A DNA stretch of 64,000 bases, taken from Periplaneta americana. Lineage: Eukaryota > Arthropoda > Insecta > Blattodea > Blattidae. A program made the translations under genes and the position numbers. The notes under the pieces were generated by a model that was given only the letters and a program-made list of their open reading frames with translations, was not told the DNA's origin and ran no database searches. Positions 10,552 through 59,690 of this stretch are shown piece by piece. Location: NCBI RefSeq assembly GCF_040183065.1, contig NC_091130.1:24803859-24867858 (forward strand), written 5' to 3'. Each line of letters opens with the position of its first letter. The first letter of the stretch is position 1.

Positions 10552-11121
10552 ATGGATCAAGTTAGTGATTCCGAAACTTTTGATCAGGAATATATTCCTG
10601 TAGAACATTAGGAAATGAAACATCAGTATCAGAAGACGAAGTTATAGACCAACAAACAAATTCAGATCGGTTGATGTCGCGTCTTTTCGACAGTGGTTTG
10701 AATTGAAGACATCTGGCACCATTTCTTCTGCACCTCCGAGGTCCCCCTTCCCTGAAATGTTAACATTGTTTCTGATAACGATAACTCTCAATTTTTTAAT
10801 TATTCTTTAATAATGACCTCATCAACATTATATTCGATTCGGCATGCTAATAATTGTTCACAGAATGCTGAAAATAATTCGTGGCGGCCTACTACAGACT
10901 CTGAAATACGTGTACTTTTGGGCATAGTGATACTGCAGAACATTATTCACAAACCTGAAGAACAGATGTACTGGTACAAATATTCAATGACTGCTACACC
11001 ATTCTTCCCAAAACGCTCTCATATAGGAGAGCAGATACTACTGTCCGGAATGCAATGTGCCACTGTGCGTAATACCCTGCTTTCGAGTCTATCACACGAC
11101 AAGCAACATTTAACGCCTTGA
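10552..11121 (+). pseudogene. piggyBac transposase remnant
   Basis: The ATG at 10552 starts an acidic MDQVSDSETFDQEYIPVEH, typical of piggyBac N-termini, ended by a stop after 19 codons. Further frames follow. The open frame 10813-11121 holds the start of the DDE_Tnp_1_7 domain (WRPTTDSEIRVLLGIVI, then a MYW...TPFF motif) and then terminates. The catalytic aspartate region is missing. Family call is from motif memory; function is lost. Confidence 0.75.
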
Positions 11122-13964: not shown

Positions 13965-15267
13965 CAGGGAAAGGGATTTGGAGTATTATAAAGAATGGTG
14001 AAACGTAGTATAGATATTCGTAGCTCAGTGACTGTCAAGCGAGCTGCGTCACGGCGCATGGAAGAGTACAGTCCACTTCATACAAACTTACACGCAACGT
14101 CTGTAAATATATTTCAGAATAAACAAATGGAACAGTTTAATGACATATAGTGACCTACATACATAATCTGCATTTTTTAAACTACATGTGCTTTTCTTCG
14201 CAACGCACAAGATACCAATAAACAACATTACAAATATACATAATTAAATATGAACCTCTGCATCTTCGCGTGTCAGTGGACATATTGATGGTGATAGACA
14301 GTTGTCTTCTGTATGGAACTCGCCTCTGAATATGTAGATCCACACGAAATGGCATTTTCAATTAATGCTATGCCTTGTTATGCCTTGTTATAATAAATTG
14401 TAAATATTATTTTCAAATTTTCAAAATACAAATTTGCACTGTTGCAAGGAAGGAAATTTTGTAACATGGAAAAACTCCGCTCTCCATCTGCAGAGACAAT
14501 TAGAGAGTACTTGAAATAAGATACGTCAATTAAATTCACATGTTAAATGACGTCATTGGGACACGTCTTTGTTAGTACATCTGAAATCCGACTAAGAATA
14601 TCGTATCCATCATTCTTAATCAAAACTTTGTTCATTTTTTCACCAACACGTTTTCCTATTTCACCTTCTACTGCACTCAGTTTATTTACAATAGTCCTCA
14701 TAATATTTATTTGCTCAACTAGTTCCACTCCTGACTTTCCTAATTGAATAATGGCATCCGGTAAATATCCAAAATTTGACTTAATATCCGTGACTTCTTT
14801 CTCGATTGTTTCATCATTAAGCAGTTCCTGGCGTATTTCAATAGTAGCCGCGTCATCGGTATCGAAAGACTGGACCACTTTCTTCACAGATTGGAGGTGA
14901 CGTGCGTAATAATTGCAAGCTTCTAACCATGACCCCCATCTCGTAGGAACTGGACATGGGGGAAGCGACAATTTAGGGAATTGTTTCCTGAATTTTGATA
15001 TTTGATCTGGAGGTTTTACAAATATAGACTTTCAATGTTGTATTGTTAGTTGGTTTCACTTTCGGCATTGTACCTACACTTCACTACTCTGAACTGCAAA
15101 CCTGCACGTTGAAGTTCTTATGCGACAACTGTCCCGTTCACCTGTTGTTGACGTGTAGAGACCTGCGAGTATGTCATGGAGGGGAGGACTTGGTATAAAG
15201 GTTTGTAAACAAATGACTATGTAGATGCCAATACTAGCTTTTACTACTCCAAATTCCGTTCCCTAGT
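13965..15267 (-). mobile_element. hAT element copy 1, internally deleted, with 8-bp duplication
   Basis: The ends are cagggaaagggatttggagt and, from the other side, tagggaacggaatttggagt. An identical 8-bp target-site duplication, gtcattac, flanks it (13957-13964 and 15268-15275), diagnostic of the hAT superfamily together with the CAGGG-type ends. Its transposase relic runs on the minus strand (14378-15068). Copy 2 (16641-18087) is the same deletion derivative in the opposite orientation. Confidence 0.92.
14378..15068 (-). pseudogene. hAT (CGGBP1-like) transposase, internally deleted
   Basis: The minus strand begins MPKVKPTNNT at 15068, the usual start of CGGBP1-like hAT proteins, and jumps by internal deletion to the C-terminal region. 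The longest frame (14543-14971, 142 aa) has PTRWGSWLEACNYYA followed by a helical SVKKVVQSF...IKSNFGYLPDAI segment. After further disruption the last exon-like part contains DVERSFSM, the hAT dimerisation motif, ending at 14378-14380. The BED finger and most of the RNase-H-like core are missing. It cannot be an active transposase. Confidence 0.85.
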
Positions 15268-15275
15268 CATTACTA

Positions 15276-15481
15276 TTAAATACGATAAAAATTCGTACCG
15301 GCACCGGGAATCGAACCCAGGACCTCTCAGCTCTGTGCGCTGAGCGCTCTTACCAACTGAGCCATGCCGGGACACGATCCACGGCGCCGGCCGAACCCCT
15401 TTCGTAATGCTATTTTACGGCCTTACTACCTGCACTTGAGACGATACACGTCACATGTATGCAGGAGCGCATATTTTTATA
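15276..15481 (-). mobile_element. tRNA-SINE (family D), inverted copy
   Basis: On the minus strand it contains an A box tggctcagttgg (exact consensus), an acceptor-like ccggcat...gtgccgg pairing and a B box ggttcgattcc, followed by gtacgaattttt. Upstream on the same strand lies a conserved leader (gtgcaggtagtaaggccgta). The anticodon arm cannot form a normal 5-bp stem and 7-nt loop with U33, so it is not a functional tRNA. Confidence 0.8.
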
Positions 15482-16640: not shown

Positions 16641-18087
16641 TAGGGAACGAAATTTGGAGTAGTAAAAGCTAGTATTGGCATCTACACAGTCATTTGTTTA
16701 CAACCCTTTATACCAAGTCCTCCCCTCCATGACATACTCGCAGCTCTCCGCACGTCAACATCAGGTGAACGGGACAGTTGTCGCATAAGAACTTCAACAT
16801 GCAGGTTTGCAGTTCAGAGTAGTGAAGTGCAGGTGCAATGCCGAAAGTGAAACCAACTAACAATACAAAATTGAAAGACTAGCCTGTATTTGTAAAAGCT
16901 CCAGATCGAGTATCAAAATTCAGGAAACAATTCCCTAAATTGTCGCTTCCCCCATGTCCAGTTCTTAAGAGCTAACGAAGCTTGCAATTATTACGCACAT
17001 CACCTCAAATCTGTGAAGAAAGTGGTCCAGTCTTTCGATCTCGATGACGCAGCTGCGATTCAAATACGCCAGGAACTGCTAAATGATAGAAAAATCGAGA
17101 AAGAAGCCATGGATATTAAGACAAATTTTGGATATTTACCGGATGCCATTATTCAATTAGGAAGGTCAGGAGTGGAAATAATTGAGCAAATAATTATGAT
17201 GAGGACTATTGTAAATAAACTGAGTGCAGTAGAAGGTGAAATAGGAAAACGTGTTGGTGAAAAAATGAACAGAGGTTTGATTAAAAATAATGGGTATGGT
17301 ATTCTTAGTCGGATTTCAGATGTACTAACAAGGATGTGTCCCAATGACATCATTCAACATGTGAATTTAATTGACGGATCTTGTTTCAAGTACTTTCCAA
17401 TTGTCTCTCCTAGATGTAGAGCGGAGTTTTTCCATGTTAAAAAATTTCCTTCCTTGCAACAGAGCAAAGTTGTATTTTGAAAATTTGGAAATAATATTTA
17501 CAATTTATTATAATAAGGCACTGCAGGAATAATTGTTTCATCAACAAAACATAGCATTAATTGAAAATGCCATTTCGTTTGGTTCTACATTTTGTTCAAC
17601 ATTTAATGATACTGTATTAGGCTATATTGTAAATATTGTAGTATATTGCAAATATTGTAAATACTGTAGTATACGGTGTATACATATTATATTTCATGAC
17701 ATTGTAAATAAAGGTTTTAATTTAACACGCTCCTGACAGAAAAACACACATATTCAGAGGCGAGTTCCATACAGAAGACAACTGTCTATCAGCCATCAAT
17801 ATGTCCACTGACAGGCGAAGATGCAGAGGTTGATATTTGTAATGTTGATTATTGCTGTCTTGTGCGTTGCCAAGAAAAGCACATATAGTTAAAAAAGGAA
17901 TGCAGATTATGTACACTATTCCATTTGTTTATTCTGAAATACGTTTATAGCACGTTGCGTGTAAGTTTGTATGAAGTGTACTGTACTCGTCCATGCTCTG
18001 TGACGCAGCTCGCTTGACAGTCGCTGAGCTACGAATATCTATACTACGTTTCACCATTCTTTATATTACTCCAAATCCCTTTCCCTG
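16641..18087 (+). mobile_element. hAT element copy 2, internally deleted, with 8-bp duplication
   Basis: Ends tagggaacgaaatttggagt and (reverse) cagggaaagggatttggagt match copy 1. The 8-bp target-site duplication gtaataag is exact (16633-16640 and 18088-18095). It is 1447 bp, about 140 bp longer than copy 1, mainly in the 3' noncoding part. Confidence 0.92.
16839..17532 (+). pseudogene. hAT (CGGBP1-like) transposase relic in copy 2
   Basis: Starts MPKVKPTNNT at 16839, meets a stop after 14 codons, then continues KFRKQFPKLSLPPCPV and stops again. A second frame (17013-17480) carries the helical C-terminal region. The hAT dimerisation motif DVERSFSMLKNFL lies in a third frame near 17410-17450, ending at the stop at 17530-17532. 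Both copies lack the same internal region, so the deletion predates their separation. Inactive. Confidence 0.85.
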
Positions 18088-27967: not shown

Positions 27968-28197
27968 TTATATTAAGTTAAGCGATGGTATCACGAGATA
28001 ACCTCTGTCGTATGGCATCTACAGTATATGGTCGCATCAATAGACGGCAGTGTGATTTATGGTTAACACACAGAGAGCAATGTGAATTCAGTTGTGAGTC
28101 GACAACCGTGCCATCCAACCATAGTACGGATATGTGGTCGCATCGCTATAGGGAAGGCAGTGTGATATGGTTATCGCACAGAGAGCGATTTTACGGG
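27830..28197 (+). repeat. Unclassified repeat family X, copy 2
   Basis: Left part contains agcactaaactcgtcggagg, complementary to the right part of copy 1. A (TA)n run interrupts it at about 27915-27953, and a palindromic MITE ends the recognisable part at 28198. Confidence 0.6.
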
Positions 28198-28200
28198 TAA

Positions 28201-28397
28201 AGGCTGATTCACAATAAACCGGGAACGGAAACGGCAACGAGAACGAGAACGGAAATATTGTTAAAATAAATGTATTTAAATGTGAGGATTCACAATTAAC
28301 TATTGTGAACGCTCACATTTAAATACATTTATTTTAACATTATTTCCGTTCTCGTTCTCGTTGCCGTTTCCGTTTTCGGTTTATTGTGAATCAGCCT
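28201..28397. mobile_element. Palindromic MITE with TAA duplication
   Basis: Almost the whole element is a hairpin: about 87-bp arms starting aggctgattcacaataaacc and its complement, separated by roughly 25 bp. TAA lies on both sides (28198-28200 and 28398-28400), consistent with the TWA target of PIF/Harbinger elements. No coding capacity. Confidence 0.85.
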
Positions 28398-28400
28398 TAA

Positions 28401-29279
28401 TGCTTAATGCAGTTGTGAGTAGATCTCCGTGCAGAATGGATATGAAAGATGGGTTATTAGGATGAGTATGTGTGCTGTAATGCCATACCAACTACCGTAA
28501 TAAATACAAGAAGCATGATGCTGTGTCGTTCATGGATGTCTGATCGCTACCCTACCCCATTCTACCCTGCTAATACTATAATTCCCTTTCCTAGCACATA
28601 CACCTACCCTCCCCTTTCAAGTAGCATGATGATGTGTTATTTGTGGGTGCTTCATTTATACCCTACTAATATACATATCTTGTCCATTCATTTGCATTTA
28701 ATGTAAAAAATTCGTCTTTAGTTGAGAAAAATTACATAGACAACTTAAAATTTGTTAGGGACAAAATCTTTATATTTGGTAAAAATTAATCTGATGTTAA
28801 AAGGGCAGAAGGTTACGAACGCATACAAAAATTATGGTAAAACAAGCAGTAACACTTTTGACAGTATCTACCATAAGATTTAAGATAGTCGTACAGAAAT
28901 TTTACTACTGAATCTAGAAAGAATGTTGAATTGAATGACTTGTAGTTCACTTAATTTAGATTATTCATTTGTCCTTTACAGTTTATTAATTGTTGCAACA
29001 AATCGAAAATATACTTAAACATAAGATCACATAGGTACAAATTCCTGTTAAACTAAAGATCTCATTGGTCCCAAATTTTTACCAGATCTTACATATTGTG
29101 TTATGATAGTGAAACTCAGTTTTTATTTTTATAACTTGGAAATTAAATTAGTTCAAAATTTGACACTGAACCAATGAACTACATATTTCCATAGAAATGA
29201 AAATTATTATGCTACAAAATAGTTAAATACATTTCCATAGCAACCATTTTTTAATTTCATATTGGAAGTACTTGTTACC
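28401..29279. other. No supported feature
   Basis: AT-rich sequence with no clear gene or repeat. Confidence 0.5.
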
Positions 29280-29510
29280 CAAAAATGAACAAAATATTCG
29301 AGGACAAAATATTAAGTTGGCACAGAAACTAGTGGATAAAGTAAAATTGGTAAAACAATTATGGACACAATAATTCTTGATCGAAATATTAATGGACAAA
29401 TTCTTTGGTGGACGAAATGTTTGCTGCACTAATTTCCTAAGGCAAAATAGCTGTGGACGTGAGATAGCGGACAAATTGTCTGATGGACGTATTGATGTGG
29501 ACGTATCGTC
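29280..29510. repeat. Degenerate GGAC(A/G)AA repeats
   Basis: The word ggacaaa/ggacgaa/ggacgta, usually followed by at(a/t)tt, recurs about ten times at irregular 15-35-bp spacing (for example aggacaaaatatt, tggacaaattctt, tggacgaaatgtt, tggacgtatcgtc). Confidence 0.55.
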
Positions 29511-30177
29511 CTTGAAGCTATCGGTAACTGGTCCACGAGTCTACCGAAAGAATGCTATGATCACTGACAGATGCAAAGTAGTCATATACTTTTGGAAACA
29601 ACTTTAAGAGGTGAGTTTTCACATGCTTCTTTGATTTTCAGGGCAATACATAAACATTTGGGGGCTTAGACATTTTCTTCTTCACGATGGCAATGGAGAT
29701 ACGAGACTTAAATGAGTATCAAGCAATTATTTTGAAAAATCATATCTCGAAGGCTAGGCCTTCTCCAGATATAGAAATTTTTAAGATTATTTCTTATTTC
29801 AAATGGAACATACGGGGAGGGGGGGAATTATGAAACTATATTACACTGAACAACAAATGTTTACTTTCTGTCTTGCTCCGAATTAAAAATCGGTGAATAT
29901 TACTAATATGTGTGCCCTAAATCTGAATTTAAAATCCAAATTGCCCCATCACGTACCATTTTCCGAGGAAAATGAATTGAATTTTTTTATGACAAAACTT
30001 ACTTGTTTTTAATTTTTCTCTGCTATTGATAAGATTACAACACACTAGGGATTCAAAATTCCTCATAATACTTGAAAAATGTGTACTGGATACAAAAATG
30101 ATGTTACATAGTTTAAAACAGAACAACAAAATATTTCATGCGTATAACGAGAAAAATCCCGGAATTTCAACTTGCAT
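29511..30177. other. Mostly unassigned; one dispersed-repeat segment
   Basis: 29725-29810 (gaaaaatcatatctcgaagg ... ttatttcaaatggaac) is similar to the minus strand of about 41872-41965, marking an unnamed dispersed repeat. Confidence 0.45.
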
Positions 30178-30710
30178 TTAAAATAATTTTCTGGGTGACT
30201 TCTGTTTACAACTAGACCCGGGACTGTATTTTAGAAGGAACCAACAATAGTCTGCAAGCATGCTGGATGATGATCTTCCTTTATATCTTCTTTCCATTTC
30301 AGATATTTCTTGATGAAATCTTTCCCCATGCTCGTCGCTTACCGCTCCTAAGTTAGGAGGAAAGAAATCCAAATGAGAGTGTAAAAAATTTTTTTCAGAG
30401 ACATATTACACTCCATTTTGTCATATGCACTTAACATGGTTTCCACAACAAGTTCTATGTAGTTGTCTGCCCTAGAATCGCTAAGGAAATTTGAGTAAAA
30501 GTCTTTGAAAGCGCGCCATGCCATTCTTTTTGTAACAGAAAGTTTTCCCTCAAACAAAGGGTCAGCCATAACTTTGTGAATTTGTGGACCGATGAAAATG
30601 CCCTCTTTTAATTTGCCTTCACTCAAACTGGAAAAATTTTCCTTTAAATACTGAAAACCACACCCTTGTTTGTTCACTGCATAGACCTCACTTGTTATGA
30701 AATTTACTTA
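30178..30710 (-). pseudogene. Arthropod multicopy protein of unknown function, one frameshift
   Basis: Two adjacent minus-strand frames (30348-30677 and 30178-30372) together give about 165 residues of a widely repeated arthropod protein that I recognise by signature: KLKEGIFIGPQI in the first part, NYIELVVETMLSAY in the middle, and NLGAVSDEHGERFHQEI plus SMLADYCW in the second. They are separated by a single frame change at an A/T homopolymer near 30385-30400, so a sequencing error is possible. The N-terminal part of the family is missing. Its biochemical function is unknown to me; its high copy number suggests TE association. Confidence 0.7.
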
Positions 30711-31014
30711 AAAGAAGGGACCAGTATCTGCTTATTTATTAGAAGTGCAAGAAACCGGAAATAAGTTATAAACTCGTAAAATTCTTCAGCTTTTGTTTTG
30801 ATTTATATCCCCAATCCTAGCCAGATGTTTCCTGGGGGAGTGCTTACCGAAAATTAAATCATAGTATATCTTAAAAACCTTACGTGATACGAAGAAAATA
30901 AGTGCATTTTCGGATTCAGCGCACATCAAACCGTAAGGGACACGTTGTTTTAAGTCGGAACAAAATTCTTGTTAACTTAGAAAGCATGATGGAAATATTC
31001 AGATTGTCAATTAA
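30711..31014. other. No supported feature
   Basis: Spacer before the large foldback; nothing recognised. Confidence 0.5.
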
Positions 31015-31290
31015 TATAGATAAACACAATATAATATTTGTTACTCAGTCAAATGACAAATCAATGTAAAATAATGACTTATATTATATGGTCATTAAGT
31101 TTTATATACATGAATTACAAATTGCAAACGTTTTCGCCCATTCAGGCATCTTCAGGCACAATTATACAATATCTCAATATCAAACTGTGTAGCCATTACA
31201 TTTGTGGTAGATAAACTGTTTAAGATTAATGATGTACAAAACATCTCCATAATTAAAATGTAATATTACAAGTCATGAAATTGAAATAAT

Positions 31291-34272
31291 GTTAAAAACC
31301 ACGTAGTGTTGTAATTAAACTTCATAATATTCTGTGGAACTCTTGTTCAGTAGAGTCCAATGAGTGATGAATTATGTCTGAAATATATAAATAAATACGA
31401 AATACAAATAGGAAATTATCAAATGTGAAAGTGTAATCGGATTGGATAATTGACAGTACTCACGTCGTTTGAACGTGGCAACTGTATAGATCACTATAAA
31501 ACAATATGTTAAAAACCACGTAGTGTTGTAATTAAACTTCATAATATTCTGTGGAACTCTTGTTCAGTAGAGTCCAATGAGTGATGAATTATGTCTGAAA
31601 TATATAAATAAATACGAAATAGAAATAGGAAATTATCAAATGTGAAAGTGTAATCGGATTGGATAATTGACAGTACTCACGTCGTTTGAACGTGGCAACT
31701 GTATAGATCACTATAAAACAATGTTAAAAACCACGTAGTGTTGTAATTAAACTTCATAATATTCTGTGGAACTCTTGTTCAGTAGAGTCCAATGAGTGAT
31801 GAATTATGTCTGAAATATATAAATAAATACGAAATACAAATAGGAAATTATCAAATGTGAAAGTGTAATCGGATTGTATAATTGAAAGTACTCACGTCGT
31901 TGGAACGTGGCAACTGTATAGATCACTATAAAACAATGTTAAAAACCACGTAGTGTTGTAATTAAACTTCATAATATTCTGTGGAACTCTTGTTCAGTAG
32001 AGTCCAATGAGTGATGAATTATGTCTGAAATATATAAATAAATACGAAATACAAATAGGAAATTATCAAATGTGAAAGTGTAATCGGATTGTATAATTGA
32101 AAGTACTCACGTCGTTGGAACGTGGCAACTGTATAGATCACTATAAAACAATGTTAAAAACCACGTAGTGTTGTAATTAAACTTCATAATATTCTGTGGA
32201 ACTCTTGTTCAGTAGAGTCCAATGAGTGATGAATTATGTCTGAAATATATAAATAAATACGAAATACAAATAGGAAATTATCAAATGTGAAAGTGTAATC
32301 GGATTGGATAATTGACAGTACTCACGTCGTTTGAACGTGGCAACTGTATAGATCACTATAAAACAATGTTAAAAACCACGTAGTGTTATAATTAAACTTC
32401 ATAATATTCTGTGGAACTCTTGTTCAGTAGAGTCCAATGAGTGATGAATTATGTCTGAAATATATAAATAAATACGAAATACAAATAGGAAATTATCAAA
32501 TGTGAAAGTGTAATCGGATTGGATAATTGACAGTACTCACGTCGTTTGAACGTGGCAACTGTATAGATCACTATAAAACAATGTTAAAAACCACGTAGTG
32601 TTGTAATTAAACTTCATAATATTCTGTGGAACTCTTGTTCAGTAGAGTCCAATGAGTGATGAATTATGTCTGAAATATATAAATAAATACGAAATACAAA
32701 TAGGAAATTATCAAATGTGAAAGTGTAATCGGATTGGATAATTGACAGTACTCACGTCGTTTGAACGTGGCAACTGTATAGATCACTATAAAACAATGTT
32801 AAAAACCACGTAGTGTTATAATTAAACTTCATAATATTCTGTGGAACTCTTGTTCAGTAGAGTCCAATGAGTGATGAATTATGTCTGAAATATATAAATA
32901 AATACGAAATACAAATAGGAAATTATCAAATGTGAAAGTGTAATCGGATTGGATAATTGACAGTACTCACGTCGTTTGAACGTGGCAACTGTATAGATCA
33001 CTATAAAACAATGTTAAAAACCACGTAGTGTTGTAATTAAACTTCATAATATTCTGTGGAACTCTTGTTCAGTAGAGTCCAATGAGTGATGAATTATGTC
33101 TGAAATATATAAATAAATACGAAATACAAATAGGAAATTATCAAATGTGAAAGTGTAATCGGATTGGATAATTGACAGTACTCACGTCGTTTGAACGTGG
33201 CAACTGTATAGATCACTATAAAACAATGTTAAAAACCACGTAGTGTTGTAATTAAACTTCATAATATTCTGTGGAACTCTTGTTCAGTAGAGTCCAATGA
33301 GTGATGAATTATGTCTGAAATATATAAATAAATACGAAATACAAATAGGAAATTATCGAATGTGAAAGTGTAATCGGATTGGATAACTGAAAGTACTCAC
33401 GTCGTTTGAACGTGGCAACTGTATAGATCACTATAAAACAATGTTAAAAACCACGTAGTGTTGTAATTAAACTTCATAATATTCTGTGGAACTCTTGTTC
33501 AGTAGAGTCCAATGAGTGATGAATTATGTCTGAAATATATAAATAAATACGAAATACAAATAGGAAATTATCAAGTGTGATAGTGTAATCGGATTGGATA
33601 ATTGACAGTACTCACGTCGTTTGAACGTGGCAACTGTATAGATCACTATAAAACAATGTTAAAAACCACGTAGTGTTGTAATTAAACTTCATAATATTCT
33701 GTGGAACTCTTGTTCAGTAGAGTCCAATGAGTGATGAATTATGTCTGAAATATATAAATAAATACGAAATACAAATAGGAAATTATCGAATGTGAAAGTG
33801 TAATCGGATTGGATAACTGAAAGTACTCACGTCGTTTGAACGTGGCAACTGTATAGATCACTATAAAACAATGTTAAAAACCACGTAGTGTTGTAATTAA
33901 ACTTCATAATATTCTGTGGAACTCTTGTTCAGTAGAGTCCAATGAGTGATGAATTATGTCTGAAATATATAAATAAATACGAAATACAAATAGGAAATTA
34001 TCAAATGTGAAAGTGTAATCGGATTGGATAATTGACAGTACTCACGTCGTTTGAACGTGGCAACTGTATAGATCACTATAAAACAATGTTAAAAACCACG
34101 TAGTGTTGTAATTAAACTTCATAATATTCTGTGGAACTCTTGTTCAGTAGAGTCCAATGAGTGATGAATTATGTCTGAAATATATAAATAAATACGAAAT
34201 AGAAATAGGAAATTATCAAATGTGAAAGTGTAATCGGATTGGATAATTGACAGTACTCACGTCGTTTGAACG
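31291..34272 (-). repeat. Left tandem array, 215-bp module x 14
   Basis: Modules begin (gttaaaaaccacg) at 31291, 31508, 31723, 31938, 32153, 32368, 32583, 32798, 33013, 33228, 33443, 33658, 33873 and 34088: 217 bp once, then exactly 215 bp each, the last one incomplete. Identity between modules is above 95% by eye. Shared variants recur at 430-bp spacing. Oriented outward (minus strand), each module contains gac|gtgagtact and tatatatttcag|acat. Confidence 0.95.
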
Positions 34273-34463
34273 AACAACGCGTTAGTTGTTTACACGAACA
34301 CACACTTTCCCCGCGTCATACTAGCTACAGTTCAAACAGCAGCAGGTCGTCTCACGTCTACGTAAGTACGTCCATAATTTAGTCTTCCAATTAGTTTTTA
34401 AAATTCTTCAAAATTTTGATTTATTTATTATTTTCATTACAGATAACTACTTCAAACATAGGA
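34273..34463. other. Unique centre of the foldback; candidate divergent promoter or first exon
   Basis: 191 bp of single-copy sequence between the two arrays, GC-richer on the left (cacactttccccgcgtcata). On + it contains gtaagt at 34362 and tattttcattacag ending at 34442, which would bound an 81-bp intron. Promoter function is inferred only from position and this signal. Confidence 0.4.
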
Positions 34464-35510
34464 TGTTTTATAGTGATCTATACAGCTGCCACGTTCAAAC
34501 GACGTGAGTACTTTTAATTATCCAATCCGATTACACTTTCACATTTGATAATTTCCTATTTCTATTTCGTATTTATTTATATATTTCAGACCTAATTCAT
34601 CACTCATTGGACTCTACTGAACAAGAGTTCCACAGAATATTATGAAGTTTAATTACAACACTACGTGGTTTTTAACATTGTTTTATAGTGATCTATACAG
34701 TTGACGTGAGTACTGTCAATTATCCAATCCGATTACACTATCACATTTGATAATTTCCTATTTGTATTTCGTATTTATTTATATATTTCAGACATAATTC
34801 ATCACTCATTGGACTCTACTGAACAAGAGTTCCACAGAATATTATGAAGTTTAATTACAACACTACGTGGTTTTTAACATTGTTTTATAGTGATCTATAC
34901 AGTTGCCACGTTCAAACGACGTGAGTACTGTCAATTATCCAATCCGATTACACTATCACATTTGATAATTTCCTATTTGTATTTCGTATTTATTTATATA
35001 TTTCAGACATAATTCATCACTCATTGGACTCTACTGAACAAGAGTTCCACAGAATATTATGAAGTTTAATTACAACACTACGTGGTTTTTAACATTGTTT
35101 TATAGTGATCTATACAGTTGCCACGTTCAAACGACGTGAGTACTGTCAATTATCCAATCCGATTACACTATCACATTTGATAATTTCCTATTTGTATTTC
35201 GTATTTATTTATATATTTCAGACATAATTCATCACTCATTGGACTCTACTGAACAAGAGTTCCACAGAATATTATGAAGTTTAATTACAACACTACGTGG
35301 TTTTTAACATTGTTTTATAGTGATCTATACAGTTGACGTGAGTACTGTCAATTATCCAATCCGATTACACTATCACATTTGATAATTTCCTATTTGTATT
35401 TCGTATTTATTTATATATTTCAGACATAATTCATCACTCATTGGACTCTACTGAACAAGAGTTCCACAGAATATTATGAAGTTTAATTACAACACTACGT
35501 GGTTTTTAAC
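34464..35510 (+). repeat. Right tandem array, inverted 215/202-bp modules x 5
   Basis: Module ends (gtggtttttaac) fall at 34676, 34878, 35093, 35308 and 35510, giving periods of 202, 215, 215 and 202 bp. The 202-bp type lacks 13 bp around ccacgttcaaacg. Donor-like gtgagt occurs at 34504, 34706, 34921, 35136 and 35338. Acceptor-like tttcag ends at 34589, 34791, 35006, 35221 and 35423. Each pair encloses exactly 86 bp. Confidence 0.95.
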
Positions 35511-35781
35511 ATTAGTTTAATTTTATGACTTGTAATATTACATTTTAATTATGGAGATGTTCTGTACACCATTAATCTTAAACAGTTTATCTACCACCAA
35601 TGTATTGGCTACACAGTTTGATATTGAGATATTGTATAATTGTGCCTGAAGATGCCTGAATGGGCGAAAACTTTTGCAATTTGTAATTCATGTATATAAA
35701 ACTTAATGACCATATAAGTCATTATTTTACATTGATTTGTCATTTGACTGAGTAACAAATATTATATTGTGTTTATCTATA

Positions 35782-36473
35782 AAATTCTTGTTGTTCAGTG
35801 TTATCATTTGGTGAGTTTTCCTTGTCATGTGCAAAATCCCAGATAAAAAAATATTTTAGATACTACATGTACTGAATATGAACAAAATTCCATCTGAGTT
35901 TAACAGAACTCACCGCACACTTATGCACACACACACACACACACACACGTCCGTGCGTGCGCCACAGGTCCAAAAACACTTTTCCCGGTACAGGTGTCGG
36001 AGAAGCTAACATAGCGTTTTGCCGCGACATTCTCGAAATCGATTTTCTGCAGTATCGCAAAAACTTTTTGGTTAGAGTAAGTAAAGAATATAGCCTACTT
36101 CTTCTAAAACTAGGACTTTTTTTTGCTTCAATAACAACAAGACAGCATTAAAAAAAAAACAAATAAATGACTAATGAAGTAATGAAGAACGATCTGCCAG
36201 AAGTCACTGTATGTGTTATGTGACCACGCCCTCCATATTAGCATGGACCAAGATTAATGAGGGGCAGATGTGACGTAATGGCACCTTACATGTGTACTCG
36301 AGTTATGTACAACATATATAAACGTCATTTCCTTTCCTCTCTTATTTAATTACTTAACTTATATTGCAGCTTAGCCAACGGCGATGTTGAATTTGTGAGA
36401 ACGACTGGTTGGACTTGAAATGACGCCCATGCATAACATCGCCATTTTTTTTTTTTTTTGTCAAGAATAATGC
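35782..36473. other. Unassigned, with a (CA)n run
   Basis: A dinucleotide CA microsatellite at about 35928-35948. A 64-codon open frame after it (35957-36151) has no recognised family. Confidence 0.5.
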
Positions 36474-36830
36474 ATCTTACTTACTAATTTTCAAATAGCA
36501 TTTAGAGAATCCGGAGGTTCATTGCCGCCCTCACATAAGCTCGCGATCAGTTCTTATCCTAAGCAAGATTAATCCAGTCCCTACCATCATATCCACCTCC
36601 CTTAAATCCACTTTAATATTATCCTCACATATACGTCTCGCCCTCCCAAAAGGTCTTTTTCCCTTTCGGTCTCCCAACTAACACTCTAAGTTATATGCAT
36701 TTCTGGATTCACCCATACGTGCTACACGCCCTGCCCATCTCAAAAGTCTGGATTTAACGTTCTTAATTATGTTAGGTGAATAATATAATGCGTGCAGTTC
36801 TGCGTTGTGTAATTTTCTCCATTTCTTTTT
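36474..36830 (-). pseudogene. LINE-1 3' fragment
   Basis: Minus-strand relative of 6182-6770. WRKLHNAELHALYYSPNI and LLRWAGRVARMGESRNAY are readable. A frameshift follows, then the GRPKGK-type and REVDMMVGTGLIL region, ending at a GTAA repeat tail (minus strand agtaagtaagatgc). It is 5'-truncated, so no RT catalytic residues are present. Confidence 0.8.
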
Positions 36831-37090
36831 CATATGAATTTTATATGTATTGTAGCATAGATAGAAGGCAGTGGCTTTCATTATAACTCTAGAACAGTTA
36901 TTTGTAATTTTCAACATACTTATCTAGGTTGGCAACTCTGAATTCAGAAAATCAACTTCCAATCGTGGCAGCCGTTTGATGCAACGACAAGAAAATACAC
37001 TATCGTGCAAAAAGGTTTCTTTAATATCCTCTACTCTTAGAAATATATTAATACATAATAAATATAAATTTAAAACTGCTCTCAGAAAGT
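36831..37090. other. Spacer between LINE fragments
   Basis: No feature recognised. The open frame that enters LINE-2 begins here but its first 35 or so codons do not match the sister copy at 53.8 kb. Confidence 0.4.
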
Positions 37091-37670
37091 ATCATATCAA
37101 TCATATTAAAGAAATTACCCCCAAACTAAATTCAGCTTGTTTTGCTATTAGATCTATGCAAAAGATAGTAAATATCAATATCTTAAAAACAATATACTTT
37201 GCATACTTCTACTCAGTAATGAATTTTGGAATAATATTCTGGGGAAATTCCACAGATAGTAACAGTATATTTCTATTACAAAAAAGACTAATTAGAATAA
37301 TAGCAGGTGTCAAATCTAGGGAATCGTGTAGGATTATTTTAAAAAAACTACAAATAATGCCCATGGCTTGTCAGTATACCTTTTCAATAATAATCTTCCA
37401 CGTATGTAATCGTGAAAACTTTGTAACTAATTCAACAGTTCATAGCATAACTACACGTCAAAAAATGACTTTCATACTCCATCGGCAAGTCTATCGTGCT
37501 ATCAAAAAGGAATGCGTTACATGGCAGCAAAAATTTTTAATAGCCTCCCTATCGATATAAAAAATGAAACTCAAAACATAAGATTATTTAGGGCCAAATT
37601 AAAGAAGTACGTAATTTCTCAAGCCTTCTATTCTGTAGGTGAATGCATGACTTTCAATAACACTTCATGA
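37091..37670 (+). pseudogene. LINE-2 polyprotein C-terminus (post-RT)
   Basis: NHIKEITPKLNSACFAIRSM is the segment just after the RT domain of jockey-clade elements. FGIIFWGNSTDSN and QKRLIRIIAGVKSRESCR follow, all characteristic of this region. The frame breaks near 37465 (RQKMTFI against an expected Asn-Asp-Phe-type continuation) and again later. The RT YADD box lies upstream and is absent. Confidence 0.8.
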
Positions 37671-37771
37671 AATTGACACTAAAACTGTGTGTTGTACTAG
37701 TAGACTATATTGTAAATCTCGTCTGTATATATTTCATCTAGACTGTGACTATAAATTAAGACTTTATAATA

Positions 37772-37914
37772 CATTTTGAATCTTGCGTACACTACTTTTA
37801 ACACTTGAATATAATTAATTGATTCACTAGCGGACTTACTCTTTTTAATTATGTAAGCCGCACAAATCTTACATAATTAACACGAGTAAGTCCGCTAGTG
37901 AATCAATTAATTAT
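37772..37914. mobile_element. 143-bp insertion with 11-bp duplication and inner hairpin
   Basis: actttataata occurs on both sides (37761-37771 and 37915-37925) but once in the LINE-2 copies at 20042 and 52938. The insertion contains a strong inverted repeat (aattgattcactagcggact and its complement, about 30-bp arms) with a second, inner pair (taattatgtaag / cttacataatta), but its left 40 bp are not part of the hairpin. Confidence 0.75.
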
Positions 37915-38012
37915 ACTTTATAATAGTATTAAGTTTTTTTACTTGTTCCATATTCTAGCTGTAAAGCAATGTATGAATACATGGAATATTAATAAATACA
38001 ATACAATACAAT

Positions 38013-39219: not shown

Positions 39220-40440
39220 GTAATTATTAGTGTCTAAATTTATTTCCTGAAGTATTTTTTTTTAACTTGAGGCATAATAATAATATTAATTCATTCCTGC
39301 TCTTCATTAACTTAATGATTGGTTAGGATATAGTTGAAAATTAATTAATGTGGATACCTCTTACCTCTTAGTTTCATCGCCGAAAAAAATTTTTTGAATT
39401 TCAAGGATAATTTTGAATATACTAATTCAATTCTTACACAAAAGTAAATTATCATTCTTCTTCTACATTAACATGATTGGTTACGATAACTTTGCAAATT
39501 AATTCTTGAAGGCATCCTTTACCTCTAAATTTGTCCGAAAAAGTTAGCCTATATATTTAAATTTCAGGTATAATTCTGGAGATATTAATTCAAATTTCTT
39601 CGAAAAATGAATCATCATTCTTGTCCTATAATATCACATTGTTTCGTAACAATAGCTTTCCAAATCAATTCATGTGGATATTTTCTAGTCCTAATTTCTA
39701 TTCCGGAAAATTACTTTAAATATCAGACACAATTCTAGGGATGCTAACGCAATTTCTACAGAAACCTAATTTCTCGTTCTTGGTCTGTATAAACATAATC
39801 ATTATCTAAAATAACTTCACAAAGTAATTCATGTGGATACATTTTAGTCTTAAATTTGTATTGAGAAAATTTACTTTAAATATCAGGCACAATTCTGTAG
39901 ATACTAATTCAAGTTTCTTCCTAAAAACGAATTAATTATAATTTTTGTCCTATATCATGTTTAGTGAGGATAACTTTGCAAATCAATTTATGTGAATAAT
40001 TTCTAGTCCTAAATTTATATTCCGGAAAATTACTTTAAATATCAGAAACAATTCTGAAGACACTAACTCAATTTTTACACAAAAATAAATTCTTGTTCTT
40101 GGTCTGCAAAAACATAATCATTGTCTAAGATAATTTCGCAAATTAATTCATATGGATACATTTTAGTCCTAAATTTGTATTCAGAAAATTTACTTTAAAT
40201 ATCAGGAACAATTCTGTAGATACTAATTCAAGTTTCTTCGTAGAAATGAATTATCATTCTTGTCCTATAATATCATATAGTTTCATAAAGATAACTTTGC
40301 AAATCAATTCTTGTGGATATTTTCTAGTCCTAAGTTTCTATTCCGGAAAATTACTTTAAATATCAGACGCGATTCTGTAGATACTAATTCAAGTTTCTTC
40401 GTAAAAATGAATTATCATTCTTGTCCTATAATATCATATA

Positions 40441-41020
40441 CAGACGTGGACAAATTATTAGACAAAATTAATTATATCTGCAATAAAGTTGTATTTATCG
40501 GCAGAAATAATGAACAAAAATGTATTTTACACATAAATAATGAACAGAAAATTGAGTCTTGAGGTTACTAATATTTTGTGAACATTCCCTTATTCTTTAT
40601 TAACACGTTGATTTTGTCAGGGATGCTGGAAACCAAAGTTCGACACTTTCTTTGAATATCAGCATCATGTAGCCAGATATCAGACAGTGCTTAAATGAGT
40701 CTATGTTTTGTTGTAAGTCTATTTTTGTTCACTTTCTTCTTCAGTATAGATCACAGATTTTCAATTTCGTTCATGTCCGGTCTTCTTGCAGGCCATGGGA
40801 GAACAGACTGTTAAATATCTTCTGCAGTATACAATTAAAACACCAGTAGTACCGATACAGCCTGACAAAATATACTTAACCATTTGAAAAATATAACAGA
40901 AGATGTAAACAATCATCTTTACAACAATAGAGACTCTGTGAATTGTACTGACAGTTGATATGACGAATTATATTATGTTTCCAAGAAAAACGTTTTAGTT
41001 TAATAATTTGTCCACGTCTG
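40441..41020 (-). mobile_element. Tc1-like element, internally deleted
   Basis: Ends cagacgtggacaaattatta and its complement taataatttgtccacgtctg at 41001-41020, with TA on both sides (40439-40440 and 41021-41022). The unit at 40275 shows the empty target, atatcatatagtttcataaa. It is 580 bp against 1.3-1.6 kb for complete relatives. Confidence 0.92.
40568..40800 (-). pseudogene. Tc1-like transposase C-terminus
   Basis: On the minus strand PWPARRPDMNEIENL matches the conserved block around the third catalytic acidic residue of Tc1 transposases (WPxxSPDLNPIENLW). It is followed by ILKKKV and, later, KCRTLVSSIPDKI, the usual C-terminal end. Two in-frame stops (after IENL and after HRLI) interrupt it; the terminator is at 40568-40570. 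The N-terminal paired-like DNA-binding domain and first catalytic Asp are missing. Confidence 0.85.
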
Positions 41021-41760
41021 TAGTTTCATAAAGATAACTTTGCAAATCAATTCTTGTGGATATTTTCTAGTCCTAAGTTTCTACTCCGAAAAATTACTTT
41101 AAATATCAGACGCAATTCTGTATATACTAATTCAAGTTTCTTCTTAAAAATGAAATATCATTCTTGTCCTATAATATCATAACGTTTTGTAAAGATAACT
41201 TTGCAAATCAATTCTTGTGGATATTTTCTAGTCCTAAGTTTCTACTCCGAAAAATTACTTTAAATATCAGACGCAATTCTGTATATACTAATTCAAGTTT
41301 CTTCTTAAAAATGAAATATCATTCTTGTCCTATAATATCATAACGTTTTGTAAAGATAACTTCGCAAATTAATTCATGTGGATACATTTTAGTCCTAAAT
41401 TTGTATTCAGAAAATTTACTTTAAATATCACGCACAATTCTGTAGATGCTAATTCAAGTTTCTTGGTAAAACCGAATTATCATTCTTGTCCTATAATATC
41501 ATAATGTTTCGTAAAGATAACTTTGCAAATCAATTCATGTGGATATTTTATAGTCCTAAATTTATATTCCGGAAAACTACTTTAAATATCAGGGACAATT
41601 CTGAAGACACTAACTCAATTTTTACAGAAAAATAAATTCTCATTCTTGCTATGTATAAACATAACCATTGTCTAAGATAATTTTGCATATTAATTCACGT
41701 AGCTACATTTTACCTCTATATATTTTGCCCGAAAAGCTTATTTGAATTTCAGGCATATTT

Positions 41761-54940: not shown

Positions 54941-55189
54941 ATGCCTGTTAAATTTGTTCAGGTCTGCTATTTTTTTTCTGTTTTTTTTTTCTTTGGTCAG
55001 ATGTGATGTCATTTTAGCGCAACAGTCTTTCTTTAGAAGGTGATAGTGAAGAAGGTGTTGAAAAATATTTGAGAGGAAAGCATAAGAAATACAGGCACTA
55101 AAATAAATTCCCTCTCTGTGCAATTGTCTTAGTCATGTGTTATCTGTGACTTGTAAGAAGGCAAAGCAATGAGAACATACACTGAGCGA

Positions 55190-57240
55190 GAAAAACTTAA
55201 ATGCGTGACAAGGAAAGAGAGGGTAAGAGACAAAAATGGAAAAAGAAAAATGAAGTCTATTTATGCACGATAGAAAGAAAACAGAAATGGAAAGGAAAGA
55301 AGGAACAGGAAAGTGAAAGAAAGAAAATTGAAGGGCAATGTTAGGTAACAGATAGAAAATGAAGAAAAGAAAAGAGAATTGAAGAAAAGAGAAGATAATT
55401 GAAGAAAAGGGTAGGAGAATATTGAAGAAAAGTGAAAATAATTTAAGAAAATGAAAGGCGAACTTAACAAAAGGGGAAAATATTTGAAGGAAAAGGAAAG
55501 AGAATTGAAGAAAAGAAAAAGAGAAATGATGAACAAGAAAGAATAATTCAAAATTATTAGAAGAGAAATTAAAAAGGTAGAAGAACTGAAGGAAATGGAA
55601 AGAGAAATCAAGAGAAAGGAAGGTGAATTGAAAGGGGTCAAAAAATAAAAAAAGGGAAGGAGACTATCGAAGGAAAGGAAAGGAAAATTTAAAAGGGTAA
55701 AGGGAAGCGAAGTGAGAACTGAAGAACATTTAAGGACAATTGAAGAAAAGGGGAGAAGTGAAGAAAATTTAAGGAGAACTTAAGAAAAGGAAGGAGAATT
55801 GAAGAAAAGAGAAATAGAAATAGAGAAAAAGAAGTACATATGAGCAAAAAGGAAGGAGAATAAAAATGGAAGACGAATATTAAAGAAAAGGGAATAGAAA
55901 TTAAAAAATAGGAAACGAAATTAATGAAAAGGGAAAGAGTAAGAACTGAAAAAGTGAGTATTGAAGAAAATGTATAATAATTGATGAAAAGAGAAGAATG
56001 ACTGAATAAAATGTAAGGGAATTGAAGAAAAGGGAAGAGAGTTGAAGGAAAGGGAAGGAGAATTAAAAGAAAAAGGAAGGAGAATTGAAGGACAGGAAAG
56101 GGAAACTGAAGGACAGGGTAGAAGAATTAAAGAAATGGAAAGGAAAATTGAAGTAAAAAAGGAAAATTGAAGAAAAGAGAGGAATAACTGTAGAAAATGG
56201 AAAGAGAAGTGGCGGAAAAGGAAGGAGAACTGGCGGAAAAGGAAGGAGAACTGGCGGAAAAGGAAGGAGAACTGGCGGAAAAGGAAGGAGAACTGGCGGA
56301 AAAGGAAGGAGAACTGGCGGAAAAGGAAGGAGAACTGAAGGAAAAGGAAGGAGAACTGAAGGAAAAGGAAGGATAACTGAAGGACAGGAAAGGGAAACTG
56401 AAGGACAGGGTAGAAGAATTAAAGGAATGGAAAGGAAAATTGAAGTAAAAAAAGGAAAATTGAAGAAAAGAGAGGAATAACTGTAGAAAATGGAAAGAGA
56501 ACTGGCGGAAAAGGAACGAGAAGTGGCGGAAAAGGAAGGAGAACTGGCGGAAAAGGAAGGAGAACTGGCGGAAAAGGAAGGAGAACTGGCGGAAAAGGAA
56601 GGAGAACTGGCGGAAAAGGAAGGAGAACTGGCGGAAAAGGAAGGAGAACTGAAGGAAAAGGAAGGAGAACTGAAGGAAAAGGAAGGAGAACTGAAGGAAT
56701 AGGAAGGAGAACTGAAGGAAAAGGAAGGAGAACTGAAGGAAAAGGAAGGAGAACTGAAGGAAAAGGAAGGAGAACTGAAGGAAGGAGAAAAATTGAAGGA
56801 AAGGAAAGGGTAATGATGGAAAGCGAAAGAGAATTGAAGGAAAGGAGAAAAGGAAAATTGTGAGATAAATCAATAAATGGGAGAAGAATGAAAAGAGAAA
56901 TAGAAGAAGAAAAGAGAATGAAAAGAAGAAGTGAAAAGTGAAGGAAGGAAAATTGAGATGAAAGAGGAAAGGGAGAAAATGGGCGTAAGTAAGGAAAAAT
57001 AAAGTAAAATAAAAAAATGAAGAGAAAGAAGAGTTGTAAAAAGAAAGAATAAGGGTAACTGAGAAAAGGATAGATGAAAATTTAAAACGCAGAAATGAAG
57101 AGAGTGAAGAAGAATATAGTTGATCGGATAAAAGAAATAAACAAAAGAATTGAAAAATTAATTGTAAAAAACATGTGGATGTAAATGAAGACAGAGAAAG
57201 ACAAGATGAGAGATAAAGAAAATAAAAGAGAAGAATAAGA
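55190..57240. repeat. Purine-rich minisatellite domain, first block
   Basis: About 2 kb in which the plus strand is almost only A and G, with words gaagaaaag, ggaaaggaga and aattgaagg repeating. Long minus-strand frames (Phe/Leu/Ser) and plus-strand Glu/Lys frames are consequences of this composition. A 292-bp block is tandemly duplicated (starts near 56111 and 56403). Confidence 0.9.
56205..56790 (+). repeat. 21-bp tandem repeats (heptad-encoding)
   Basis: Unit gcggaaaaggaaggagaact plus g, 21 bp, in two runs (about 56205-56345 and 56500-56790), later changing to a gaaggaaaaggaaggagaac type. On + it reads EGELAEK repeated. Frames are broken between the runs (stops near 56370 and 56701), so I treat it as a minisatellite and not a gene. 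Confidence 0.85.
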
Positions 57241-58190
57241 ATAACGAAAAATTCCGTGTCGCACGAACAACATCAACACTCTTTGTGGCCTACAGTACAT
57301 TTTTCTTAGCCTAAGAAATAGCCCAGAGTACACTAAAGTGGATAAAAATACATCCAAAAAGTGTGCAAAATATTTAGAGTTGTACAATTCTTGTGGCTAC
57401 AATATCTAAAATACAATTTTCTTGCCGAAATCATAATTTTGAACACATTGTAGGGAAAACAATGGATCTAGAAACAGAGGTAATAAGGGCATTAATGTCC
57501 CCGCGTGATTTAGCGCTCAATCCACCCCCAACCCTCTGACGCTAATTAAAAACGGAACGACACCCGCTCGCGCTCTCGCTTTAACAAGAGGCATAGCTAT
57601 TACATTTCATTATTAAGTGAACTCGAGGATATAAAAAGCAAGATTTCTTTGGAATCTTTGTGTTTTAATTTACCGACTTTGTAAGTCGCACTTTGTAGCT
57701 GTGCTGGATATAATGGCCGCTTAGAAAATTTAATTCTCTGCGCTCTTTAATAATGTTCCAACCCCCGCACCCGCACCCCGCGTGCCCAAAGTTTTACTGG
57801 CGGAATCAGACATTTATGTGTTAATGCTTCTTTTAAAATACTCTTTATTCCCACCACAGATACTGCACACCCCCAATTTCAGTGTTACTATATAAACTGC
57901 ACTTCACTGTGTTACAGTGCGAAAAAGTTATAATGAATCTGAGACGACAGTTGTGGTGCTGAAAAAAGTCTAACAACTCATATTCATACAGAAACTTAGG
58001 CATTTCACTACGTTTCAATAATTTATTGTTATTAGGAAGGAGGTATTTAATGAATACGTAGGCTACACAGTTACATACAAAAGTTTAGGCCTACACAAAA
58101 ATTTGAGATGATAAGATAAAGCGCATAATGCGGAAGGAAACGAAGTCAGGAAGGTGGCTAAAATTCAGGTACTGTACATGAGAGATTATG
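57241..58190. other. Non-repetitive island between purine blocks
   Basis: About 0.95 kb of ordinary composition, including a GC-richer part (57490-57800) with tgacgctaattaaaaacgga, cccgctcgcgctctcgcttt and cccccgcacccgcaccccgc. No coding frame. Could be a conserved regulatory block or simply spacer. Confidence 0.4.
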
Positions 58191-59310
58191 AGGAAAGAGA
58201 GGAAGCACGTAAGAAAGAATATGAGAGAGGAAGTAACCAAGAATATCAGGGAGAACACGAAGTATATGAGGAAGAGCCTAAGAAAAACAGGGAAAATATG
58301 AGGAAAATGACAAAAATGTAAAGAAGAAGTTGATGGAAAATTTTATGAGGATGATGATGTGATGATAAAAGAATGTGGGAGATAAAGAACCTGAGGAAGA
58401 ATATGAAAAAGAATTTAAGGAAAAATATGACAAAGTATTTGAGGAAAAAGATCATGAAGAATCTGAAGAAGGCGAGAAAAAATCGAATGAAGAAGATGAC
58501 GAAGTATCTGACGAAAAAGATGAAGAATCTCAAGAAGAAGAAGAAGAATCTTAGGAAGAAGAAAGCGAAGACTCTTAGGAAGAGCAGGACAAAGAATGTC
58601 AGGGGAAAACAATAATAAGAACCTGATGAAGGAGAGAACGAAGAATTTGAGAGACAAGCTAAGGAAGAATTCGAGAAAAAGGATTACGAAAATTCGAGAA
58701 AAAGGATTACGAAAATTCGAGAAAACAGATTACGAAGAATTCGAGCAACAAGATTACGAAGAATTGAAGGAAGATAACATAGAATATGAGGAAGAAGGTG
58801 GCAAATCTTCGAGAAAGAAAGTGACAAAGAATTTAAAAAAGAAAGTGACAAAGAGTTTGAAAAAAGAAATTGACAAAGAATTTGAGGAGAAGACGGGAAA
58901 GAATTTAAGGAAGAAGACAAAAGTTCGATGAAGATGACAAAAAATTATAAAGAAATTGACGAAAGTGACAAAGAATTTAAGGAATAATATAAAAGAGATT
59001 GAGGAGGTACAAGATGGCGAACAATCTGAGAGAGAATGTGGCGAAAAATCTGGAGAAGATAGCGAACAATCGGGAGAACAAGATGGCAAATAATCTGGAA
59101 AAGATGATGGCGCACAATCTGGAGAAGAAGATGGTGAACAATCTGGAGAAGATTATGGCGAACAATCTGGAGAAGAACATGGGGAAGAATTTGACAAAGT
59201 AAATGAAGAAAACTTTGAGAAGAAAAGTATCAAAGAATTTGAAGAAGAATATAATGATAATGATGATGATGAATGTGAGAAAAAAGTGACGAAGAATTTG
59301 ATGAAACAGT
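58191..59310. repeat. Purine-rich minisatellite domain, second block
   Basis: GAA/GAG-rich on +, with local tandem structure: 27-bp units near 58660-58760 (attcgagaaaaaggattacg) and 24-30-bp units near 59012-59195 (gcgaacaatctggagaagat). Glu/Lys/Asn frames on + and Phe/Leu/Ser frames on - are compositional. Confidence 0.85.
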
Positions 59311-59490
59311 GGTAATAGTAGCATTTCATTTAACGTCTTCAACTGCAGAGATTTATCAGCGGCAAAATTCAAGGTAAGTAAGAACGTACCGACCAATTTT
59401 GTCTGGAGCTCTCTATTATGGAGAGAATTCTTTTACGTGGCTTAAATCTTCCAACACAGAACCCAGAGATTTACTTCCCTTCCGGAGGAA
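59311..59490 (-). mobile_element. Degenerate SINE-B relative
   Basis: gcatttcatttaacgtcttc, aactgcagagatttatcagc and gagaattcttttacgtggc parallel the body of SINE-B at 7438-7652 (ttttatttaacgacgctcgc, aactgcagaggttatatcag, caggagttcttttacatgcc). The tRNA head is not recognisable. It sits inside the purine domain. Confidence 0.6.
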
Positions 59491-59690
59491 TCGATGGTAA
59501 GGATTATGTAGGCCTTTAAAACACACACAGTGCAAACTTTGTATCCAACGATCGGCATGGTGACCTAGGGACCACCAAGGACGATAACTTGAAGACGAAA
59601 AATATGTGAAAAAAACAAGTGAAAAATGTGAAAAATAATGTAAGGACGTATGACGAAGAGTGTTAGGAAAACACCACATATAATGTGAGA
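59491..59690. other. Spacer inside purine domain
   Basis: Ordinary sequence grading into the 27-bp repeats. Confidence 0.4.

Follow-up and report, generated by a model that had tools for sequence, protein, structure and literature searches.

A probable Penelope-like element insertion in Periplaneta americana with tandem arrays of putative spliceosomal introns

We analyzed a window of Periplaneta americana DNA (NC_091130.1), meaning the whole stretch of 64,000 nucleotides studied here, in which short segments bounded by splice-site-like signals recur on both strands. We conclude, with a probability of about 0.88, that the window holds a nonautonomous insertion of a Penelope-like element (PLE) with two head-to-head pLTRs and that its arrays consist of genuine spliceosomal introns and their exons. 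The segments are read as introns because they are precisely missing from many other copies in the same genome, as happens if spliced RNA is reverse-transcribed into DNA. The assignment to the PLEs is made because of the reverse transcriptase (RT), the endonuclease-like remnants, the pLTR order, the tail, and the target-site duplication (TSD).

Results

Anatomy of the insertion

The whole feature runs from 30974 to 35780, beyond the part (34273 to 35510) that an earlier note on this DNA had described. Judged by its sequence, it is a single PLE insertion whose arms are two inverted pLTRs. The parts, with putative introns and exons named according to this reading, are as follows.

30962 to 30973, no strand: left copy of the 12-bp TSD, AAAATTCTTGTT; the exact string occurs at 30962 and 35781 only
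30974 to 31019, minus strand: PLE "tail" of 46 bp, with which the left arm ends on its 3' side; the same extension is found on one arm of other insertions
31020 to 31283, minus strand: 3' part of the left pLTR, counterpart of 35518 to 35776 (arm comparison)
31284 to 34272, minus strand: left pLTR array of about 14 modules; a module is about 215 bp long and combines an 86-bp intron with an exon (TRF and intron coordinates)
31378-31463, 31595-31680, 31810-31895, 32025-32110, 32240-32325, 32455-32540, and 32670-32755, minus strand: first seven left-array introns by coordinate, 86 bp
32885-32970, 33100-33185, 33315-33400, 33530-33615, 33745-33830, 33960-34045, and 34175-34260, minus strand: last seven left-array introns by coordinate, 86 bp
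34278 to 34361, plus strand: exon 1 of the right pLTR; its 5' limit is the start of the part common to other copies, not a mapped start site
34362 to 34442, plus strand: intron 1, gtaagt to cag, 81 bp (joined and retained junction counts genome-wide)
34443 to 34503, plus strand: exon 2 (sequence comparison of the arms)
34504 to 34589, plus strand: intron 2, the intron of the first module, 86 bp (joined exons of the module intron genome-wide)
34590 to 35423, plus strand: right array, with module exons of 116 or 129 bp (signature scan)
34706-34791, 34921-35006, 35136-35221, and 35338-35423, plus strand: right-array introns, 86 bp (signature scan)
35424 to 35780, plus strand: last exon and 3' part of the right pLTR, without a tail (arm comparison)
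35781 to 35792, no strand: right copy of the 12-bp TSD (exact string match)

Outside the arrays, both arms run on as an inverted repeat that ends in GTTTATCTAT. Past this end, one arm is prolonged by about 45 bp, and the other is not; in the window, the prolonged arm is the left one. The first 4 bases of the tail, CTAT, are also present on the plain arm. An inverted pair with one tailed and one plain end was found in 35 of the 43 sequences compared (42 fetched loci and the window part). In 32 of the 35 testable loci, the two flanks shared a repeat of 8 bp or more, which was exactly 12 bp long in 23; the remaining 3 of the 35 had no TSD of at least 8 bp. When end pairs were mismatched as a control, a repeat of at least 8 bp appeared in 6 of 1,190. 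The pLTRs are in inverted order in the window and in 34 other paired loci and in direct order in locus L025.

The earlier note had missed the mobile-element insertion with its TSD, as well as the dispersal of the family over the genome, and had proposed that the center of the two arrays drives two divergent RNAs. We found no support for such RNAs, because the left arm is truncated; its sequence starts within the 3' end of an exon, and exon 1 and intron 1 are present in the right arm only. To all appearances, two retroelement arms meet head to head at the center, as has been described for PLE insertions (PMC3846280).

Intron-like segments in the window

We scanned the 64-kb window for the signature of the segments and found five gtgagt..ttcag segments of exactly 86 bp on the plus strand and fourteen on the minus strand, with no further occurrence in the window outside these 19. 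The earlier note had given 86 bp for all of the donor-acceptor segments on the plus strand; this was exact for the five, and the first one, from gtaagt at 34362 to cag at 34442, is 81 bp long. Its statement that the left array mirrors the right on the minus strand was borne out by the fourteen segments there and not by the leader, given the missing exon 1 and intron 1. The exon-like spacers of the right array measure 116, 129, 129, and 116 bp, and the 129-nucleotide unit has stops in 3 of 3 frames, both as had been described. The longest ATG frame in a virtual spliced right arm is 35 amino acids, in agreement with the proposal of a noncoding transcript built from repeated exons.

The 19 modules are tandem copies (TRF gives 13.9 copies for the left array). 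Because of this, they are not 19 independent observations, and by themselves they are weak evidence.

The window also holds a degenerate tandem repeat with a unit of about 160 bp in two blocks (39556 to 41648), long purine-rich tandem repeats with open low-complexity frames (55133 to 60983), a mariner-like transposase fragment (63256 to 63759; Transposase_1, 5e-6), and a fragment matching DDE_Tnp_1_7 (10756 to 11121; 4.4e-5). Two similar open frames without a Pfam match lie in opposite orientations at 14543 to 15031 (minus) and 16896 to 17480 (plus), and between them are tRNA-Cys-like sequences at 15295 and 15830.

Exact absence of the segments from other copies

We searched the genome of 3,231,669,367 bases in 91 sequences; the assembly is given as 3.23 Gb with 17 chromosomes and 91 scaffolds in the portion of PMC12774602 that describes it. 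Junctions were counted as places with up to 3 mismatches, a count in which arrays enter more than once and which does not give numbers of insertions. By this count, the exon-exon junction left by the module intron, TTCAAACGAC|ACATAATTCATCACT, occurs at 299 places genome-wide (reversed control, 4), and the unspliced acceptor of the module intron occurs at 437 (control, 5). All 100 of the 299 junction places that were listed are exact. For intron 1, the joined form occurs at 83 places, 27 of them exact, and the unspliced donor occurs at 213 (control, 0 for each). A single array, at C8:159564268-159568418, gives at least 31 of the 299 places; judged from pattern places only, these junctions are exact, lie mostly 131 bp from one another, and follow a joined exon 1-exon 2. 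Thus, as the earlier note had supposed from their signals alone, the segments look like introns, a reading that is upheld by their exact GT-AG absence in many other copies.

Among the matches listed, we found loss of intron 1 at 37 loci, loss of the module intron at 39, and loss of both at 24, the overlap of the two lists covering C1 to C9:49 Mb and only exact matches for the module intron. Also among the matches listed, 17 same-strand arms at 16 loci lack both introns at one fixed spacing that is set by exon 2. We regard these arms as spliced leaders.

Some modules of L018 and L029 are missing precisely the GT-to-AG segment. The junction of the module intron, CGAC|ACAT, keeps both AC pairs; therefore, it did not arise by an AC/AC microhomology deletion, which would leave one. 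When we tried 29 cut offsets per intron in the fetched loci, a set that includes L045, L047, L048, L049, L063, and L064, fetched because the junction was present, only offsets within mismatch reach of GT-AG matched. One shifted junction, displaced by 8 bases on the exon side and by 9 on the acceptor side and thus not equivalent to an exact 86-bp deletion, had 0 places genome-wide. The donor is GTGAGT in 130 of 139 strings that fit the flanking pattern; the remaining nine comprise an exon joint, which is no donor, and eight donors that differ from GTGAGT. Changed splice sites include ATGAGT and GCGAGT, and L009 has two GCGAGT donors outside the flanking pattern of the tally. All told, the 86-bp and 81-bp segments appear to behave as spliceosomal introns.

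Relationship to Penelope-like elements

The arms are dispersed on many chromosomes; the genome search gave 831 candidates, and the 40 that were scored yielded 69 matches. RT or endonuclease stretches lie beside the same arms in 16 of the 42 fetched loci; the window part from 28001 to 38000 contains neither. In L009, single-module arms flank RT and GIY-YIG-like remnants in two inverted halves. L025 carries, on one strand and in direct order, part of a pLTR, a tail, an N-terminal region, the RT, an endonuclease-like stretch, and a pLTR. The Pfam domain RVT_1 was matched in L025 at 1.5e-7 (31.8 bits, cut-off 29.6) and in L009 at 2.2e-6 (28.0 bits, under the cut-off). The two halves of L009 matched PF01541 (GIY-YIG) at E values of 0.0038 and 0.0031 (17.9 and 18.2 bits, under the Pfam gathering cut-off of 22.6). 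The endonuclease pieces of L025 matched no Pfam family at an E value up to 1, and further fetched loci have stretches similar to the endonuclease piece of L009. A search with the RT against PDB returned weak matches only, telomerase among them.

We also looked for a hammerhead ribozyme in the pLTR. The string CTGAAGA..GAAA at 35645 to 35672 of the window is what we take to be hammerhead-core-like. Rfam gave no hammerhead match at an E value up to 5, its only two matches being sub-threshold ones to RAGATH-30, and folding of the hammerhead-core-like stretch gave a z of -1.23.

Probable splicing variants and spliced copies

We found spliced joints in nine fetched loci, eight of them by module classification and the ninth being L048. 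The fuzzy classifier sorted 184 modules into 150 unspliced, 33 spliced, and 1 other; it misjudges at least one module (the first of L047) and misses L048. Six of the loci with spliced joints (L018, L029, L045, L047, L063, and L064) could be tested for TSDs, and all have TSDs of 12 to 13 bp; L042, L048, and L049 gave no end pair for this test. Since TSD-flanked copies contain exactly joined exons, spliced sense RNA apparently served, at least sometimes, as the template for a PLE.

Some loci mix spliced and unspliced modules. One arm of L018 contains modules of both kinds and its other arm an unspliced one, and L018, L029, and L042 share a pattern of two unspliced modules followed by spliced ones. 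This pattern may reflect common descent, partial splicing, or template switching.

Other copies have the form of alternative splicing products. At one place, exon 1 is joined directly to exon 3, with exon 2 skipped. In L048 (1140 to 2100), seven copies of exon 2, joined precisely at the exon boundaries, lie between exons 1 and 3. In both arms of L063, the junction retains ATTTCAG, which fits the product expected from the use of an upstream AG. The corresponding variant, TTTATAG|ATTTCAG, is still unspliced in two modules of L032, and these are the only 2 of 132 unspliced modules tallied that have an AG at such a short distance upstream. At up to 2 mismatches, the L063 product is found nowhere else in the genome and therefore represents one insertion.

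We considered whether the tree of copies calls for multiple independent intron losses. The tree has 8 label changes (7 to 8 in bootstraps), of which only 2 are forced by well-supported branches; shuffles gave a mean of 9.4, with 53 to 61 of 500 as low, and the tree is nearly a star. The case for multiple losses from the tree is therefore weak.

Divergence and origin of the arrays

A module begins about 40 bases before the end of exon 2, takes in the whole of intron 2, and stops about 96 bases into exon 3. The joint between modules lies inside exons, at the same place within 2 bases in the arrays mapped, and one ancestral duplication is therefore likely. The fetched arms hold from 1 to 33 unspliced modules, with 33 in L012.

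Among 150 modules picked by the same fuzzy rule, likeness was 96.5% within an arm, 95.5% between the arms of one insertion, and 88.3% between insertions. The modules of the window are 97.8% alike between arms and 89.0% alike to those of other insertions. Among 144 modules from multi-module insertions, 64 had their nearest relative only within their own arm and 61 only in a different insertion; local amplification is therefore not the whole story.

Mean pairwise substitution was 6.1% in X1, 3.1% in i1, 4.3% in X2, 3.3% in i2, 1.4% in the last exon, and 2.7% in the outer part. Greater conservation of exons than of introns thus fails except for the last exon, and the introns are not clearly faster evolving. 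Trans-splicing as the source of the arrays was likewise rejected, the module joint lying in exons (from the exon 3 part to mid exon 2) and not at splice sites. L048, with its exon-end joints, is an exception to this rejection, and a 2-bp AC slip can also explain it.

Discussion

We weighed other explanations for these observations. If the segments were not introns, the intron-less copies would have to stem from DNA deletion, by replication slippage or microhomology, in tandem repeats. Indels are common in tandem arrays, and the spliced modules of L018 and L029 sit in arrays of 5 and 13, in which one event may have multiplied. Against this, two unrelated segments are gone exactly at GT..AG, both of them at fixed spacing in 17 arms among the matches listed; junctions at other offsets were not found in the fetched loci or, for one shifted junction, genome-wide; microhomology between the AC pairs would leave one AC, not two; and skipping of an exon and use of an upstream AG are both results of splicing. 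We consider deletion highly improbable. We give just as little credence to an ancestral intron-less element that gained its introns later by introner-like insertion. Tree counts cannot separate gain from loss, but two different introns would need to be gained, both of them are in both arms of L009 together with RT remnants and single-module arms, and the upstream-AG product and the exon-2 skip arise by splicing of existing introns.

It is very unlikely that the window instead contains a host locus with two divergent spliced noncoding RNAs that function in piRNA or double-stranded RNA pathways. The right arm is noncoding, and inverted arms could form double-stranded RNA, yet the locus belongs to a dispersed family, is inserted between TSD copies, and has exon 1 in one arm only. 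A foldback-type DNA transposon with long inverted terminal tandem repeats would account for inverted, tandemly repeated arms and a TSD. It would not account for the RVT_1 domain and endonuclease remnants that relatives carry beside the arms, in one case in direct-repeat order, or for the asymmetric tail, and exact intron loss requires an RNA stage; we regard such a transposon as exceedingly improbable.

For the PLE insertion that we favor, the pLTR would be the untranslated leader of the element, running through exon 1, intron 1, exon 2, intron 2, and exon 3 to the start of the ORF. A segment reaching from late exon 2 through intron 2 into early exon 3 would have been tandemly amplified, so that each arm would hold many copies of a genuine spliceosomal intron. 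We infer that the array grew from one ancestral duplication, via DNA-level unequal exchange or reverse-transcription slippage, and that the two arms in the window were copied from one array. Sense RNA from such arms would sometimes be spliced and sometimes not, and both forms would be copied into the genome by PLE enzymes. Several findings count against this reading, namely the missing RT and endonuclease stretches in the window part from 28001 to 38000, the low or absent Pfam scores of the endonuclease pieces, the changed splice sites of some introns, introns that do not clearly evolve faster than exons, the lack of an Rfam hammerhead match at an E value up to 5, the weak tree, and the 3 of 35 loci that had no TSD of at least 8 bp.

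A bolder and rather doubtful extension is that the family is a genomic archive of the splicing outcomes of its RNA, with the number of modules open to change by jumps along the RNA template during reverse transcription. If this is true, unspliced, partly spliced, fully spliced, exon-skipped, and alternative-acceptor sense transcripts would all have been copied by the PLE machinery. Template jumping in each round would mean that intron arrays are made during retrotransposition and not by DNA recombination.

Although they are retroelements, PLEs are known to retain introns. Arkhipova et al. reportedly described in 2003 that the intron in the 5' leader of Drosophila virilis Penelope is retained in genomic copies. 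The cockroach family resembles that element in retaining a leader intron. It differs in having the intron up to 33 times in one fetched arm (L012) and in that retained and exactly removed forms are both abundant. Among titles from the part of the PLE literature that we covered, none reported exact intron loss among PLE copies.

In the relevant part of PMC3846280, endonuclease-containing PLEs of Adineta vaga are described with direct and inverted head-to-head pLTRs, an optional 31-bp tail, TSDs of 8, 9, and 10 bp, a pLTR that runs into the ORF start, and intron retention. The cockroach family is like them in its pLTR orders, tail, TSD, pLTR that runs into the ORF start, and retained introns (PMC3846280); unlike the elements as described there, it bears intron-exon units in tandem within the pLTR. 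Poseidon PAc of Anolis carolinensis also consists of pLTR-ORF units, and its reverse transcription starts inside the template RNA, a feature linked to the genomic tail in the section of PMC11167929 on this element. The cockroach family shares the pLTR-ORF units and the tail (PMC11167929). According to the same section, Poseidon PAc has a hammerhead motif, in contrast to the cockroach family with its lack of an Rfam match at an E value up to 5 (PMC11167929).

The Adineta vaga work argued in 2013 that an antisense template suits intron retention and left an unspliced sense template open, in its passage on this point (PMC3846280). The spliced cockroach copies point to sense RNA, where that passage left the choice between sense and antisense open (PMC3846280), and they thus bear on the open question of the template strand for PLEs. 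Hundreds of retained and hundreds of joined junctions in one genome, some of them in TSD-flanked insertions, suggest that spliced sense RNA can act as a template. The cockroach family would be a ready test system, with a natural series of leaders that contain from 1 to more than 30 tandem introns.
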